NCBI GenBank assembly: GCA_037382465.1
Contig: JARRPX010000006.1
Span: forward strand, 1-52,597
DNA: 52,597 bases
From: Anaerolineales bacterium
GTDB lineage: Bacteria; Chloroflexota; Anaerolineae; Anaerolineales; E44-bin32
Direction: 5' to 3'
A program made the translations under genes and the position numbers. Below the pieces are notes generated by a model. It made no database searches, was not told the origin of the DNA, and was given only the letters and a program-made list of their open reading frames with translations. How positions within the stretch are numbered: position 1 is the stretch's first letter; each line of letters starts with the position of its first letter. This document shows positions 12,282 to 20,026 of the stretch, in pieces.

Positions 12282-13655
12282 TTATTCTTCGAATTCGACC
12301 TGGGGAAGATCTTTCATCGCTTCTTCGATCTTCTCCATGGGATAATCGTAGTCTTGGAGTTGATTGTGAAGATAGGCGTCGTTTGCAGCAAGATCCAGAA
12401 GTCCATGGCCGGAGAGGTTGAAAGCGATCACGCGCTCGGTGCCCTCTTCCTTGCAGCGTAACGCTTCCTCGACGGCCACGCGTACGGCGTGCGCCGACTC
12501 GGGAGCGGGAACGATACCTTCCGCCCGGGCAAACTGCACACCGGTTTCGAATGTGCAAATCTGATCGATGGCGACGGCGTCGATGTCACCATGGGCGTGC
12601 AGTGCACAGATGTGGGGCGCCATTCCATGATAGCGCAGCCCACCGGCATGGATACCCGGCGGCACGAAGGAATGGCCGAGGGTGTGCATTTTGACGATGG
12701 GGGCCATTTTGGCCGAATCGCCGTAGTCGAAGGTATAGAGTCCCTTGGTGAGTGTGGGACAGGCTTTTGGCTCGACGGCGATGAAGCGTGTATCCTTGCC
12801 GTTCTCGAATTTTTCGTGCAGGAAGGGGAATGCGAATCCTGCATAGTTGCTACCGCCGCCAACGCAGCCGATCACCACGTCCGGATATTCGCCCGCCATT
12901 TCGAACTGCTTCAAGGCCTCCAATCCGATCACCGATTGGTGCATGAGCACGGGGCCGAGAACCGAGCCCAGGGAGTATTTGTATTTGCCTTCCGAAGCGA
13001 CGGCCGCTTCGACCGCCTCCGATATGGCGATTCCCAACGAGCCCCTGCTTTCGGGATCTTCCGCCAGAATCGATTTGCCGAACTTCGTCTTTTCCGACGG
13101 ACTGGGTGTTACGTTGGCGCCGTAGGTCTCCATGATGATGCGGCGATAGGGTTTTTGATCGTAAGAGACTCGAACCATGTATACTTCACAGTCCAGGTCG
13201 AACATATTGCAGGCCAACGAGAGGGCGGTTCCCCATTGTCCGGCGCCCGTTTCAGTAGTAAACCCTTTCACACCTTCCTCTTTGGCATAAAAGGCCTGTG
13301 CTATGGCGGTATTGAGCTTGTGTGATCCGACCGGGCAAACCCCTTCATATTTATAGTAAATGTGCGCCGGCGTATCCAGCACCTTCTCCAACCGCCGGGC
13401 GCGGATGAGCGGCGTCGGCCGCCAGAGTTTATAGATTTCACGCACGGGCTCCGGAATCTCGATGTAGCGCTCCATACTCACCGCCTCACCGATGAAGCGC
13501 ATGGGGAACAGCACCGACAGAAATTCAGGCGTGACGGGTTCTTTGGTCACGGGGTGAAGCACCGGGCCTGGCGACAGCGGCATGTCCGGGTTGATGTTGT
13601 ACCATTCCTTGGGGATATCGTTGTCCGTAAGTACAAATTTCGTAGACTCACTCAT
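12282..13655 (-). CDS. trpB2: tryptophan synthase beta chain, TrpB2 type
   Basis: PLP enzyme joining indole (or a related acceptor) with serine to give tryptophan. The 457 residues, longer than the usual 400, and the N-terminus (IPKEWYNINPDMP) identify the TrpB2 group. The PLP Lys is Lys113 in GSHKLNTAIAQ; the phosphate-binding glycine loop is VGCVGGGSNYAGFAFPF; TPLIRARRLE is typical. ATG 13655 has GGAG about 10 nt upstream. There is no trpA or other trp gene beside it, as is common for trpB2, so it may salvage indole. It is controlled by a Trp-specific T-box. Confidence 0.94.
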   Translation of the reverse strand: MSESTKFVLTDNDIPKEWYNINPDMPLSPGPVLHPVTKEPVTPEFLSVLFPMRFIGEAVSMERYIEIPEPVREIYKLWRPTPLIRARRLEKVLDTPAHIYYKYEGVCPVGSHKLNTAIAQAFYAKEEGVKGFTTETGAGQWGTALSLACNMFDLDCEVYMVRVSYDQKPYRRIIMETYGANVTPSPSEKTKFGKSILAEDPESRGSLGIAISEAVEAAVASEGKYKYSLGSVLGPVLMHQSVIGLEALKQFEMAGEYPDVVIGCVGGGSNYAGFAFPFLHEKFENGKDTRFIAVEPKACPTLTKGLYTFDYGDSAKMAPIVKMHTLGHSFVPPGIHAGGLRYHGMAPHICALHAHGDIDAVAIDQICTFETGVQFARAEGIVPAPESAHAVRVAVEEALRCKEEGTERVIAFNLSGHGLLDLAANDAYLHNQLQDYDYPMEKIEEAMKDLPQVEFEE

Positions 13656-13762: not shown

Positions 13763-13793
13763 AAAAAACGCTCATCCCCGATGGGGACGAGCG
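13763..13793 (-). terminator. T-box-controlled intrinsic terminator
   Basis: On the minus strand, CGCTCGTCCCC and GGGGATGAGCG form the stem and TTTTTT follows directly, about 107 nt before the trpB2 start. The T-box sequence at 13804-13817 is next to it, as needed for the terminator/antiterminator switch. Confidence 0.9.
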
Positions 13794-14082
13794 TAAGCTT
13801 GCCCGCGGTACCACCCCGCTTAGGCTGGCATCAGGGACAAAAAAACCGCCGGTGGTGCGACGGTTTTTGTGAGCCAGCCTCACTCATTTCGGACATCTCA
13901 ATCGATATCCTTTGCCCAGATAACGGTGGCAGCGCCGGCGCGGGTTACTTGGAATTCCTTTCACCCTGCAGCTCCGAGGTCCATTCCATGCCGGCCAACG
14001 TGCGGTTTCTCAACGCTTCCCGCTCTCTGTATCGTCGCGCCGGCGTGTACTTGTCCTCTTCACAGCCTTTACTTGATTCGTT
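13763..14082 (-). promoter_or_regulatory. T-box riboswitch leader, tryptophan-specific
   Basis: The leader of trpB2. Read on the minus strand it shows the stem I AGTA (14048-14051) and AGAGAG (14023-14028) elements, the lower stem CGCCGG/CCGGC arms that enclose a specifier loop GGAATGGACC with the codon TGG (Trp) at 13981-13983, a large stem III (outer arms GGCTGGC/GCCAGCC), the conserved T-box GGGGTGGTACCGCG (13804-13817), and the terminator hairpin at 13763-13793. Uncharged tRNA-Trp would stabilise the antiterminator and permit trpB2 transcription. The variable base of the TGGN bulge is T, which would pair with A73 or by wobble with G73 of tRNA-Trp. Confidence 0.92.
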
Positions 14083-14088
14083 TGCAAA

Positions 14089-14117
14089 ATTATAGAGTTT
14101 AGAAACGCGCTTGTCAA
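14089..14117 (-). promoter_or_regulatory. consensus sigma70 promoter of the T-box/trpB2 transcript
   Basis: TTGACA (14112-14117) and TATAAT (14089-14094), both perfect on the minus strand, are separated by exactly 17 nt. The -35 box overlaps the stop codon of the macroglobulin gene (14114-14116). The predicted start is near 14082, just before the T-box stem I. Confidence 0.88.
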
Positions 14118-17100
14118 CAAACTGCGTTCTTGAGCAACCTTCTTTCCCTTTCAACATGAAAGCCCGGCGTCCATTTTTGCCCGAAGATCGTCGGCGGTTG
14201 GACGTATCTGACGTTGTTTCTTCTCGTCGCCACCTCCACTCGATTGTCGACAGGCGTCAGTTCGACGTGCGCGCTCTCCTTCACCGAAAGGAATTGCAGC
14301 GTGTCGCTCGCGGAACGTCCCCAGTTGGCAAGGTTGTACATTTCGTAGGCTTCGGCTGGCAAGGCGAGGAACGTTCCTTCCTGCATGACGCGGCTGTAGT
14401 AGCTGAATTGGTGCCGCCCTTGTTTCAACTCGGTGACGAAGAAACTGACCCGGTCCTTGTGGATTTCCTTGTAGTTGTAGCCGAGGTTTTTCCATGAGTA
14501 TTGGGCGTTTCCGTAGTAATCGACGACGTGGCTGGTTGTATTCAAGCCTTCGTTCAACGCTTCCAATCCGCCGGGTAATTTGTCTTCGATGATGACGTAG
14601 GAGCTGGCTTCCGGGACGTCGACGTTGAGTATCACCTGCACCACATCTCCCACCGCCGCAGCTTCTATGGGTTTGCTGGAGCCGAAGATGCGATAGTCCC
14701 GTGTTATTTCGATGCTGCCGGCCGCTTCGACATGGGTCGTGGATAGATACAACTGTGTGGAGACGACGAAATACAAACGATCTGCGTCGGCATTGTAGAT
14801 TTTGAGTCGGTTGATCCCGGATTTCAATTGACTCCTCCTGACATCGATAGACTGCATGGGATGGTCTGCCGTCAGCGTCCCTTCCTGGATGGTTTCACCA
14901 TCGAGTTCGACTTGATAATAAGTCTCTCCTTCAGCTTTCTGAGTCGCAAGCAGATAATCACTGAGCGCCAAGAGCGTAAAGGACGTCTCGTTGGTCGTGC
15001 CCCAGCCCTGGGTCTTCCGTTGCGACATGAGCCAGCGTACGATTTCGGGGATCAATTCATTGTCCGGATCGAGCCGGGTGAAAGCGGATAGTGCCAACGC
15101 CGTTGAACGTGTCGTGGAGGACATCGTTTTCTTGTAGTAATGACCGTCGAGCTGCGGAGACGGCCAGTAGGCGCCCGAAACGCCAAGCAGGGCGGAATCT
15201 TCCAGGAAACCCAGGATTTCGCCGGCGGCCTCGGAAGCATCGAGTTCGTCCAACGCAATAGCCAGGGCGGCCTGACTGAAAGTGTCCAGCTTGATCCAGT
15301 ATTCGTACAGGGTGAGCGTGGCGTCGCGATCGCCGTGGCCTGCGGTTGCCATGCTGAAGAGCGCGAAGGCTTTCGTCCTCGGGTCCATGGTTGCCAGGTT
15401 TTCCTGCAGCCAGTCCACGCCTCGAAGGATGGCGGCTTTATCGACTGCATAACCGGCCTCGGCGGTTGTTGCCAATCCGAACACGACCCATGCTGTCTGG
15501 TAATCGTGAGTCTGGTCGTCGTACCACCAGCCCCATCCACCGTCCTGATGCTGCATCGCATACAGCATTTGGAGGCCGGCCGTAATTTTGGGCTCGAGAT
15601 TGAGGAGACTGGCTTGATCTGTGCTGCCCAGTTGAAAGAGGGCTCTACCGACGACCGCGTTGGGAAGCGCCTTGCTCATGATCTGTTCCACACAGCCGTA
15701 CGGATAGCCGGTCAGATACTCGAGCCCGGATAGTACGTTTCCATCTATCGATCTGCTTAGTTCGATGTGTACGCTGCTTTGATCGAGCGCATCCGGCGGC
15801 AGGAAAATGACGGTATCGTATTCGTCCTCGATGCTCCCAACCTGCGTGGTCACTTCCGGAACGGCCAACGGTTGGATCGTCAATGTTTGCTGGACGAAAT
15901 CGGCGACGCCGTCCCCTTCGGCGCTGATGGTGACCTGCGCATCGCCGGCTTCGGCGGCAGTCGCTGCCCAGCCGATGGTGACGGACTCGCCGGCCGGGAC
16001 CATGCGAGTTACCAATGCGGGATCCGTGATTTCGAGAAGGTCGCTGCTGATTTTGATGGCCATGGACTGCTGGGATTCGCTGTAGTTATGAACGAGAGCA
16101 GTCAGTGTAAATTGATCTCCACTCGTTAAGCTGCCGGGAAGGATGGGCCGCACCACGACCGCTCGATGCGTGATGATGCTTGCAGTCGTTTCGCCGACGA
16201 GTGAGTTGGTGGTCACGGCGCGTGCAGTCAGACGCCAGGTCGTGAGGTTGTCCGGCAGAGGCACCGTCAGCGTCAGTTCGCCCTGGCTGTCGGTCGTCAG
16301 GGTGGGGAACCAGGCCGCCGTGTCCTTGAATGCCGAGCGTGGGCTGCCGGGGGAGACACCGCCGTCACCACCACCGCCGCCGCGGCCGGGCGAGTAGATC
16401 TCGCGCCAGGGGGACATCGAATCGAACGTATGCACATCGAGTTCTCGAGGCCCGTAAAATGCTTCCGTGATCGGATCGACGAGGACCTCACTGAGTGCGT
16501 AAATTCCTTCGTCCACGAGTGCAAGTGAAACCTCTGCACGGACCGGCTTTCCCTGGCTGTCTGTGACGCGTATCGTTATATTGGCGTCCTCTCCTGGCTG
16601 GTACGCCTCCCGATCCGTTTCGATTTCGAGGTCCAGATAACCGTCCGTCGAGTCGATATGCAGTTCGATCGTATCGAAATGCAGGCGGCTTTCCGGTTTG
16701 TTGGAGAACTCGTACTCGCTCAGAGCCGTGGATTCAGGCTGCCAGGCGTTGATGGTTACGAAGACGTTGGGCGCGTCGCTGGCGAGAATGGGAACCTGAA
16801 CTTGCGTGATCGGAGATGTCAGTTCGACTTCCTGCGCCCGATGAACCTTTCCTCGCTCGATGGTCAAAATCGCAGGTCCGTCGAACGAGGATTGGATAAA
16901 GAGATTGGCGGTTTGGTAAGGAGAATAGCTGTCTTGTTCGGCCCATAACGTCAACTCATCCGAGGCGTTGAAATTCATCCAGGGATAGTCGAAATCATAG
17001 ATGCCGATCCAGCGTGTAGTCGATATGTCGATGCCGCGCGCGTCCTGGGCGCTGAGTGTCAATTTGTAATGGCCGTTCTCATTCAACGTCAACGGAAGGT

Positions 17101-20026
17101 GTGCCACGCCGTTCTCGTCCGTCGTGGCCGTCAGCGTTTCGAGGACCGTTTCGTAATCGTAGTAACGGTTGTCCCATTTCATGATTTCCAGACTCAGTGA
17201 GCGGTTGGAAACGGGCTGATCTTCGATCGAATCGACTCGGGCTTCCATGGTGAATTCAGAACCTGGAGTATGTATATAACCGGAAGTCGAGAGAGATATT
17301 TTTTCCGCCGCATCGTAGACTTTCAAAACGATGAAGTTGCTCACCGTCTGATGACTGCCGTCGTCGACGGTTACTTCGATTCCCCAGGTGGAATACATTT
17401 GGCTCGATCCCCAGAACGTTGTTCGATAACCCTCCTGTCCGAGGATGGCATTACTGTGGTAGGTGTATTCCCCATCAGCATTCGTCTTGCCTTTTGCCGC
17501 GTTTCTCGGACTTTCAAACCAGACGTACTCCACATCCTGATCCCCCGTATCTTCCTCCCACCAATACCCATAAAACTCACCCAATTCGTATTCCCGTATG
17601 GTGACTTCCGCATCACCCACAGGTTCCCCGAACAGGTATTCCGCGCTCACGTTTACGGTGAACTCATCACCCTGAACGTATGTGGCTGCGTCACTGGAGA
17701 GTACGACTTGATAATCGGGTTTGCGATAGTCCTGGACTTTGAACCGTCCTTCGAAGACCTCTCCCTCGAGATTGATTTCGAGCTTGTAATCCCCCAGCGC
17801 TGCACCTTCGGCGAGCAAAAAAGATCCGTGAATCGTCCCGAAGAAGTTGGTCTTGAGTTCTTGAGTCTCGATCAGGTTGCTGCGAGCATCTCGGATACGT
17901 ACTTCGACCGCCGTGTTTTCCGGAAGCAAGCTGTAATCTACATCGTCGTCGAGGCGAAGGATCGCCTTGTAATTTACGGTTTGTCCGGGACGATATATCG
18001 GACGCTCGGTATAGATGTAGGCGAAGTGCGTAGAAGCGTATTGCGACGGTGTCCCCGAATAATTCCAATACGACCAGGTGGAGGACCAGGTCGATGAAAG
18101 GCCAACCGCGGTCGTGTCCTGTTCGCCTTGACGGGCAACGACGATCAGCGGCTCATAATTCTCGGGGATCGTCGTTTGGTACAGCCCGTGGTTGTCCGTG
18201 TGGGATTCTCGAATTTTCGATCCCTCCGACGTGTAAACGCGGATTTCGGCATCCGGAACGACATCGCCGTGAATGTCCGTCAACCAGACGAGGAGTTCCG
18301 TGCCGGAGTACTTCGCCACGAGTGTGTTTTGCGAGAGCAGTACGAGCATCTGATCCTGAAGCACGCCATCGATCTCCATGCTCAGCATGTACAAACCAGG
18401 CCGTACATCTTCGGGTAAATACACTTGCTTGATGTTCCAATGTTCGCCCTCCAGATTGGAGGTGATCTCCCAGCGCTTTATCATTTCGGTTTCGCCGCTG
18501 ATCTTGTCCAGCGAGGGTTGGGTGAAATTGGGATCATCGCCGCACAGTTCGACGAATTGGCGGATGCTGAGTTCGTTCAGTTCGAAAAACACTCGAGTCG
18601 GCTCGGTGGGCATCAGCGAAAATTGAACGGCACGCAGGCCATCCGCGTCGACAAGCTGTACTTTCGATCCGACCCACGCAAAATTGGCGTAATGATAGTA
18701 ATGCTCGGCTGAAAACGACCATGTGTAAGGCCGGGAGAGGACATTTTCTCCCTGCGCATCACGCATCGGCGGTTGGAACGTGACGGAGTAAATGGAAGCG
18801 CGATTCATGTTGCTCGTGAAATGAAAATTGAGCGTGTTGTCTTCCCAGGTGAAATACCCCGGCTCGTGGGGCGTGATTTCAAAGGCGTTTTCGACGCTTT
18901 CGTGATCCATCGCTCGATCGAACACCACTTGGATGTCGTCCTCCAAATTCAATGAAAGCTTTTCGTTGGGGAAAACCTTGACTATTGGCGGAGCAGCAGA
19001 ATAAACAAGATCTTCCGGGACGCCGAGTTCGTATCCGCTGGAATTGGAAATCGAGTGGTTGAAACTGAACGTGTATTCCTTGCTGGGCGCTGGTGGAGAA
19101 TCGAGCAGCAGTCTGGCGGTGCGATTGTTTAGCCAATTGATCGTATATTCGAGCGGGGGATTCGTTTCCAATGCAGATTCGACGCTCTCAGGATCGGTGT
19201 CGTAGTTAAACGTGATCCGTATCTGTCTGTCGCCGTATTCCGGCTGTTTGCCGAGATCGACTTTGAATTCGTCCAACCAGTAGGACCAGCGGTACGGACT
19301 TTCGAGTGTCAGTCCACGAGAATCAGCCGCCGAATCCGCGATCGTGAATTGATATCGCTGTCCGGGGGAAAGCGGTTCGGTCAGCTCGATTTTGAGTTTG
19401 CTGCCGGTCGACCAGGTCAGGTCATACTGCGCTTCAGGCTGAACATCGAAGGCACTGGAGACGCTTTCCTTGTCCATGTCGCGGTCGAATTCGATTTCGA
19501 TCGTTCGTGTGTCTATCGATAGCTGCGACGAACCCGGATCATGGCGGATCACGCTCGGTGCGGGTAACACCTCGAAAGTGAGACGTCCGTATTCGTAGGC
19601 GTGATCGCCGGTCACGCTGGCAAATTCGGGTTCGAAGTACACCGTGTAGGTAACACCGGGCTTGAAACCCGTCTCCGGCGTGAATACCAGTGTGTCGCGG
19701 GCAGGGTTCCATTCCGCTTTGCCTTCTACATACGGAGACAATTGCAGCACATCATCGGATTTGTCCACCTGCATGGATTGGTTAAATAGAAGCACGAGTG
19801 GACCAGCAGGCGGCACGTAGCTATTAACGGTGTTGATTGTCCCCACTTCTACGACCCAGCCTTCCGGGGTGGGAGTGGGGCTTTCTATTTTTACCGGCGT
19901 CTGCGTCGCGGTCCCTTTTATCCTGGTGACGTCAGGTGGTGGTGTGTCCGTTATGCTTTCGGCACAGGCTGCGACGAAAATAGCAATTCCGATCAACAGT
20001 CCCAAGATCGATATCGTTCTTCGCAT
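14114..20026 (-). CDS. alpha-2-macroglobulin family lipoprotein with thioester
   Basis: A 1970-residue lipoprotein (signal peptide ending VAAC, residues about 1-21; GGAGG before ATG 20026). After a Thr-Pro linker come several N-terminal Big_5/Ig-like domains (about 45-450), the MG domains, including MG2-like YIYTERPIYRPGQTVNYKAI, and a Gly-rich bait-like segment GRGGGGGDGGVSPG (about 1215). The central A2M signature FPTLTTDSQGELTLTVPLPD follows, then the thioester motif YGCVEQ with Cys at about 1445, and the alpha/alpha-toroid and receptor-binding-like C-terminus. Such proteins covalently trap proteases at the cell surface. No PBP1c gene, the usual partner in Gram-negatives, is nearby. Confidence 0.93.
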   Translation of the reverse strand: MRRTISILGLLIGIAIFVAACAESITDTPPPDVTRIKGTATQTPVKIESPTPTPEGWVVEVGTINTVNSYVPPAGPLVLLFNQSMQVDKSDDVLQLSPYVEGKAEWNPARDTLVFTPETGFKPGVTYTVYFEPEFASVTGDHAYEYGRLTFEVLPAPSVIRHDPGSSQLSIDTRTIEIEFDRDMDKESVSSAFDVQPEAQYDLTWSTGSKLKIELTEPLSPGQRYQFTIADSAADSRGLTLESPYRWSYWLDEFKVDLGKQPEYGDRQIRITFNYDTDPESVESALETNPPLEYTINWLNNRTARLLLDSPPAPSKEYTFSFNHSISNSSGYELGVPEDLVYSAAPPIVKVFPNEKLSLNLEDDIQVVFDRAMDHESVENAFEITPHEPGYFTWEDNTLNFHFTSNMNRASIYSVTFQPPMRDAQGENVLSRPYTWSFSAEHYYHYANFAWVGSKVQLVDADGLRAVQFSLMPTEPTRVFFELNELSIRQFVELCGDDPNFTQPSLDKISGETEMIKRWEITSNLEGEHWNIKQVYLPEDVRPGLYMLSMEIDGVLQDQMLVLLSQNTLVAKYSGTELLVWLTDIHGDVVPDAEIRVYTSEGSKIRESHTDNHGLYQTTIPENYEPLIVVARQGEQDTTAVGLSSTWSSTWSYWNYSGTPSQYASTHFAYIYTERPIYRPGQTVNYKAILRLDDDVDYSLLPENTAVEVRIRDARSNLIETQELKTNFFGTIHGSFLLAEGAALGDYKLEINLEGEVFEGRFKVQDYRKPDYQVVLSSDAATYVQGDEFTVNVSAEYLFGEPVGDAEVTIREYELGEFYGYWWEEDTGDQDVEYVWFESPRNAAKGKTNADGEYTYHSNAILGQEGYRTTFWGSSQMYSTWGIEVTVDDGSHQTVSNFIVLKVYDAAEKISLSTSGYIHTPGSEFTMEARVDSIEDQPVSNRSLSLEIMKWDNRYYDYETVLETLTATTDENGVAHLPLTLNENGHYKLTLSAQDARGIDISTTRWIGIYDFDYPWMNFNASDELTLWAEQDSYSPYQTANLFIQSSFDGPAILTIERGKVHRAQEVELTSPITQVQVPILASDAPNVFVTINAWQPESTALSEYEFSNKPESRLHFDTIELHIDSTDGYLDLEIETDREAYQPGEDANITIRVTDSQGKPVRAEVSLALVDEGIYALSEVLVDPITEAFYGPRELDVHTFDSMSPWREIYSPGRGGGGGDGGVSPGSPRSAFKDTAAWFPTLTTDSQGELTLTVPLPDNLTTWRLTARAVTTNSLVGETTASIITHRAVVVRPILPGSLTSGDQFTLTALVHNYSESQQSMAIKISSDLLEITDPALVTRMVPAGESVTIGWAATAAEAGDAQVTISAEGDGVADFVQQTLTIQPLAVPEVTTQVGSIEDEYDTVIFLPPDALDQSSVHIELSRSIDGNVLSGLEYLTGYPYGCVEQIMSKALPNAVVGRALFQLGSTDQASLLNLEPKITAGLQMLYAMQHQDGGWGWWYDDQTHDYQTAWVVFGLATTAEAGYAVDKAAILRGVDWLQENLATMDPRTKAFALFSMATAGHGDRDATLTLYEYWIKLDTFSQAALAIALDELDASEAAGEILGFLEDSALLGVSGAYWPSPQLDGHYYKKTMSSTTRSTALALSAFTRLDPDNELIPEIVRWLMSQRKTQGWGTTNETSFTLLALSDYLLATQKAEGETYYQVELDGETIQEGTLTADHPMQSIDVRRSQLKSGINRLKIYNADADRLYFVVSTQLYLSTTHVEAAGSIEITRDYRIFGSSKPIEAAAVGDVVQVILNVDVPEASSYVIIEDKLPGGLEALNEGLNTTSHVVDYYGNAQYSWKNLGYNYKEIHKDRVSFFVTELKQGRHQFSYYSRVMQEGTFLALPAEAYEMYNLANWGRSASDTLQFLSVKESAHVELTPVDNRVEVATRRNNVRYVQPPTIFGQKWTPGFHVERERRLLKNAVC

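Follow-up and report, generated by a model that had tools for sequence, protein, structure and literature searches.

A tryptophan T-box before a stand-alone trpB2 gene in an Anaerolineales bacterium, with a conserved terminator-like hairpin in Stem III

In the genome of an Anaerolineales bacterium, a T-box leader of tryptophan specificity precedes a stand-alone gene for the type 2 tryptophan synthase beta chain (trpB2), and very likely controls it, probably opening a route of indole salvage when tRNA-Trp runs empty. The leader has the RNA anatomy and the specificity signatures of its class, the gene belongs to the TrpB2 family, and both are part of a Trp T-box regulon of three transcription units that has conserved counterparts in related bacteria. 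Additionally, the tip of Stem III in the Trp T-boxes of this order forms a conserved hairpin that resembles an intrinsic terminator. The features are collected in Table 1; the window is the whole stretch of 52,597 nucleotides that was analysed.

The leader RNA

The Rfam scan of the window yields two matches, one of which is the T-box family (RF00230), at 14072-13780 on the minus strand. The score is 97.8 bits (E 2.3e-20) against a gathering score of 93, and the match spans positions 1-219 of the 219 in the model, that is, without truncation. The earlier note, made from the sequence alone, had recognized a T-box without giving its strand and had proposed a covariance search and a fold of the 320 nt as checks. 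Both bear out the assignment, the first with the full-length match above the gathering score and the second with a fold that is 3.6 standard deviations more stable than those of dinucleotide shuffles (z -3.6). The parts that had been named (AGTA, AGAGAG, TGG specifier, core and terminator) are all located on the minus strand.

The purine string of the T-box discriminator, RRRxG-Stem III-AA (motif as defined in PMC7583486), is present as GAGUG...AA (13885-13820), and the base helix of Stem III is 95% paired across 21 sequences. A hairpin can be drawn in the relatives, too, at the position of the insert that precedes Stem III. The terminator hairpin (13793-13763) has a folding energy of about -20 kcal/mol. 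It shares the strand CUCGUCCCC, on its 5' side, with the 3' side of the antiterminator, so that the two structures are mutually exclusive. Judged by these elements, the leader is almost certainly a canonical transcription-antitermination T-box of tryptophan specificity.

The promoter TTGACA-17-TATAAT (14117-14089), in a setting where 0.4 promoter-like sites are expected in shuffles, predicts a transcription start near 14082, which coincides with the upper coordinate given in the earlier note. The upstream alpha-2-macroglobulin gene (1970 aa, 14114-20026) ends within the -35 box (TTGACA, 14112-14117, minus strand), its stop codon being the TGA at 14114-14116.

Table 1. Features of the trpB2 locus, in the direction of transcription
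Feature	Coordinates	Strand	Basis
Sigma-70 type promoter TTGACA-17 nt-TATAAT	14089..14117	-	12/12 consensus matches
Whole Trp T-box leader, predicted transcription start to terminator	13763..14082	-	Rfam RF00230 and fold
AGTA element, Stem I	14052-14042	-	read off leader sequence
Stem I AG-bulge element AGAGAGC	14022..14028	-	Rfam alignment
Specifier context GAATGGACC = GAA-UGG-ACC	13978..13986	-	UGG pairs with tRNA-Trp anticodon CCA
Stem II with S-turn elements (GAA / AGTA)	13942..13966	-	Rfam alignment
F-box CCACCGTTA, part of Stem IIA/B pseudoknot	13921..13929	-	Rfam alignment
Extra hairpin after Stem IIA/B and before Stem III, absent from the Rfam model	13891..13910	-	Rfam alignment
Stem III with flanks, GAGUG-stem-AA	13820..13885	-	RRRxG-Stem III-AA purine string
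Stem III tip, terminator-like hairpin AAAAACCGUCG-CACCAC-CGGCGGUUUUUUU	13839..13868	-	terminator scan, conservation, covariation
T-box core GGGGTGGTACCGCG	13817-13804	-	located in leader sequence
Antiterminator with T-box bulge UGGU (13813-13810)	13783..13817	-	Rfam alignment
Intrinsic terminator, 12-bp stem, ends in T6	13763..13793	-	terminator scan
trpB2, tryptophan synthase beta chain type 2, 457 aa	12282..13655	-	NCBIfam models

The TrpB2 gene and the Trp T-box regulon

The likely start codon of trpB2 is the ATG at 13655, which is preceded by GAGGAG and lies about 108 bases past the terminator. The identification of the product as TrpB2 in the earlier note agrees with the NCBIfam models, whose cut-offs are far exceeded (NF009057, 707 bits, cut-off 366; TIGR01415, 645 bits, cut-off 519); the score against the TrpB1 model TIGR00263, 154 bits, is below the cut-off of 392. 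The PLP lysine and the TETGAGQWG motif are invariant in the family alignment, in which the catalytic motif columns GSHKxNTA, TETGAGQWG, GGGS and GHG are kept. Among solved structures, those closest to the protein are a TrpB chain, at 448 bits, and two chains that bear the name TrpB 2. The best matches of the TrpB2 sequence point to Chloroflexota, class Anaerolineae, as its source.

The genome encodes 10 T-boxes, which precede trpE, trpB2, ileS, pheS, aspartate kinase, trpS, thrS, serS, valS and leuS (names other than trpB2 were read from the translations, without a profile search). Three of these T-boxes, those of the trpE operon, trpS and trpB2, are Trp T-boxes, and the first two are absent from the earlier note. 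The trpE T-box shares its contig and strand with trpC, trpB1 and trpA. The assertion that the controlled gene is "not the trpAB pair" thus holds at the trpB2 locus but fails for the genome as a whole, where the trp operon has a Trp T-box of its own. Replacement of a lost trpAB pair by TrpB2 in the source genome is ruled out by the presence of trpB1 and trpA.

T-boxes before TrpB2 in related bacteria

T-boxes upstream of TrpB2 were detected with Rfam in further Chloroflexota, the phylum to which the confirmed cases among the named loci all belong, with the exception of L104, which is labelled Actinomycetota. The order T-box-trpS-trpB2 is found in four related loci: L021 (genome G019), L087, L095 and L100. 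A further locus, L182, matches L087 in its T-box spacing and Stem III sequence, and the two are probably of the same species. Among 27 newly fetched TrpB2 loci, a pattern scan located a T-box before the gene in 7 of the 15 from genomes with trpC and in 9 of the 12 from genomes lacking it; Rfam confirms 15 of these 16. At seven close TrpB2 loci (L164-L170, 73-77% identical to the gene described here), no T-box was found in the fetched upstream DNA; T-box control of TrpB2 is therefore common, not universal, and these seven loci hint at lost control or gene transfer.

Two irregular arrangements were observed as well. In L026 (genome G005), an open reading frame at 680-1396 that by eye resembles an AAA-type ATPase is located between the Trp T-box and trpB2. 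In G024, which has neither trpC nor trpA, the TrpB2 pieces in L027 and L036 are interrupted by in-frame stops, and the gene is apparently in decay.

Gene co-occurrence and a probable role in indole salvage

The proposal of indole salvage made in the earlier note gains comparative support from the distribution of the genes. Among 201 genomes of the order that are at least 85% complete, 47 encode both TrpB2 and trpC (indole-glycerol-phosphate synthase), 86 encode only TrpB2, 24 encode only trpC and 44 encode neither. In these counts, G182, with one weak trpC match, is taken to lack trpC, and G017, whose TrpB2 lies at a contig end, to have TrpB2; most of the genomes are drafts, and many are incomplete. 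Thus, 86 of the 133 TrpB2 carriers lack trpC, and the two genes are statistically independent (Fisher odds ratio 1.00), which rules out that TrpB2 simply follows the de novo pathway.

In the family, which is represented by 27 genomes, trpC is present in four, and TrpB2 or parts of it in about a dozen. A trpA gene is present in the same four genomes as trpC, and a divergent TrpA-like gene in one genus. The TrpB2-encoding genomes of the family that lack trpC also lack a TrpB1 match and trpA, save one with the divergent TrpA-like gene; TrpB2 accompanied by neither trpC nor trpA is found in G010, G014, G016, G019 and G023, and fragments of it in G022 and G024. The divergent gene (L077, 1453-2271, in G005; also in G001-G003) scores about 122 bits, above the TIGR00262 cut-off, and resides in genomes lacking indole-glycerol-phosphate synthase. 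Its candidacy as a partner of the nearby TrpB2 in G005 is unsupported, the same gene being present in sister genomes that lack TrpB2.

Retention of TrpB2 where the indole-making pathway is missing is the pattern expected of a salvage enzyme. Taken with the trpS-trpB2 T-box operon in four loci, the co-occurrence of genes suggests that trpB2 probably has a role in indole salvage. Indole salvage in Thermococcus kodakarensis involves both of its TrpB paralogues (Hiyama 2014, as cited in PMC11085991).

Two other accounts of the enzyme must be weighed. TrpB2 might be an ordinary beta isozyme that partners TrpA in the de novo pathway, in which case the T-box would merely co-regulate it with the trp operon and no salvage would be involved. 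This account fits the source genome, where trpC, trpA and trpB1 are all present under their own Trp T-box. We nevertheless consider it unlikely given that TrpB2 is equally frequent in genomes with and without trpC, and that several genomes of the family have kept it in the absence of both trpC and trpA, which implies that a TrpA partner is not required for its retention.

Some archaeal TrpB2 use phosphoserine. It is conceivable, too, that the product of TrpB2 is not tryptophan, or that its donor is O-phosphoserine or another compound, with the T-box marking only a link to the tryptophan supply. The position of TrpB2 on a separate branch, as reflected in its 154 bits against the TrpB1 model (cut-off 392), is in favor of this possibility, but it appears less probable still, because the presence of three units under Trp T-boxes (trpE operon, trpS and trpB2), together with the trpS-trpB2 operons, points to tryptophan itself as the product.

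Tryptophan specificity

The UGG specifier matches the amino acid of the regulated gene, and the cognate tRNA-Trp(CCA) is encoded in the genome, where a pattern search located one tRNA gene with the anticodon CCA and the discriminator base G. The specifier context GAA-UGG-[AG]CC is shared by the three Trp T-boxes of the genome and the relatives from the family, and GAA-UGG is found in 11 of 11 Trp leaders of the family set. More distant relatives contain GAA-UGG at the same place, with a few flank variants such as GAG-UGG-CC in L100. The bulge of the trpE and trpS T-boxes and of most relatives is UGGC, complementary to GCCA, whereas that of the trpB2 leader is UGGU, which pairs with the GCCA of tRNA-Trp through one G-U. 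The assignment to tryptophan in the earlier note thus stands on the covariance model, on the specifier kept in relatives and on the match of the discriminator base in relatives. That the leader instead has a different specificity or has decayed, its UGG being there by coincidence, is hardly credible: the UGGU bulge, in place of the UGGC that in most relatives fits the discriminator G of tRNA-Trp, speaks for it, but UGG stands at the specifier position of the model and is kept in relatives across the order, and the promoter, antiterminator and terminator are all intact.

A proposed scheme of control

By analogy with the T-box family, from which both the response to tRNA and the direction of control are taken, the switch would operate as follows. 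Transcription would begin near 14082, and Stem I would read the anticodon of tRNA-Trp through UGG. If the tRNA-Trp is uncharged, its 3' end would pair with the UGGU bulge and hold the antiterminator, so that the polymerase enters trpB2; charged tRNA-Trp would not form this pairing, the terminator would fold and trpB2 would be off. The signal that opens trpB2 would accordingly be uncharged tRNA-Trp. TrpB2 would then join indole, either external or leaked, to serine or possibly phosphoserine, yielding tryptophan, such that empty tRNA-Trp would open a route of indole salvage.

A terminator-like hairpin at the tip of Stem III

Seven U follow the hairpin at the Stem III tip (13868-13839), which is itself scored as a terminator by the scan. 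Relatives were scanned for a stem, a loop and a U-run between the F-box and the T-box core. Such a hairpin is present in 17 of 28 Trp T-boxes, where dinucleotide shuffles predict 1.55. Of the 17 non-Trp T-boxes of the family, one has it (0.5 expected), which rules it out as a general trait of T-boxes in the family. Four leaders, three of them from Dehalococcoidia (L115, L130 and L133) along with L104, have no U-run hairpin in Stem III; when these are excluded, the count is 17 of 24. Among further Trp T-boxes that were fetched by TrpB2 rather than by the hairpin, 14 of 16 contain it. Overall, the hairpin is found in 29 of 38 distinct Trp T-boxes of Anaerolineae (L182 and L190, whose Stem III sequences were already counted, are dropped), against about 5% expected by shuffling, in sequences that are related by descent and so do not represent independent events.

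The shared pattern consists of a GC stem, a CNNCAC loop and the U-run. The stems vary (CCCGUUG/CAACGGG, CCCUGUG/CACAGGG, CCCCGC/GCGGGG and others), and the U-run is constant. In the alignment of 21 sequences, five of the seven pairs of the apical helix have changed on both sides. Covariation, scored over the whole Stem III structure, reaches 0.302, more than in any of the 500 shuffles (mean 0.205) or in any slid register (at most 0.115). The 5' strand of Stem III, AGUGAGGCUGGC (13873-13885, minus strand), is almost invariant in the Trp T-boxes of Anaerolineae, although in many of these only GGCU must pair. Pairing of the CNNCAC loop with the GGUG of the T-box or the GGUGA of the Stem I loop was considered and is not claimed, because both are near-universal T-box sequences and the match is therefore indistinguishable from chance.

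In the computed folding of the nascent RNA, the hairpin reaches a pairing probability of 0.95-0.99 once its 3' arm is out, when the antiterminator is not yet made. In the Bacillus subtilis glyQS T-box, pausing of 30-60 s at Stem III has been reported (Grundy and Henkin 2004, as cited in PMC6197855). The early pairing and the glyQS pausing together suggest a pause or a first terminator. The Stem III tip of the Trp T-boxes of the order may be a second conserved transcription-control element, either a built-in pause or a first terminator that thins transcription, a reading for which we see about as much chance of being right as wrong. The hairpin would give tRNA-Trp time to bind before the usual antitermination decision. 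We found no description of a conserved U-run hairpin at Stem III in the openly accessible literature.

Relationship to known systems

In Dehalococcoides, Wels et al. (2008, PMC2494555) reported three T-boxes, one each before trpE, a trpB-like gene and the gene of an Ile-tRNA ligase; the trpB2 T-box is thus a further member of a reported kind, with a wider taxonomic reach. The two systems, both found by sequence search, share the targets trpE and trpB-like gene and presumably the phylum. Unlike in Dehalococcoides, the regulon described here includes trpS as a third target, the relatives contain trpS-trpB2 operons, and the specifier and discriminator were checked; the long Stem III with its terminator-like tip is missing from the Dehalococcoidia leaders L115, L130 and L133. 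A 2013 survey that takes in T-boxes from Chloroflexi does not mention trpB in its main text.

With the canonical transcriptional T-box (RF00230; B. subtilis tyrS type), the leader shares Stem I, Stem II, IIA/B, Stem III with RRRxG...AA, the antiterminator and the terminator, and it differs by the extra hairpin between IIA/B and Stem III and by the terminator-like tip of Stem III. The gene resembles the trpB2_o group of TrpB2 (COG1350; Merkl 2007, PMC1854888) in standing apart from the trp operon of a genome whose operon includes trpB1, a likeness of location; it differs in being bacterial and under a T-box.

Implications

If the Stem III hairpin does act on the polymerase, these leaders would provide a naturally strong, conserved example with which to test the old suggestion of a pause site in Stem III. 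The bacterial role of TrpB2 is often left open, and the T-box ties it to tryptophan starvation through a regulatory code that can be read. Many Chloroflexota without the de novo pathway have retained TrpB2 under T-box control, from which indole cross-feeding in their communities is predicted.
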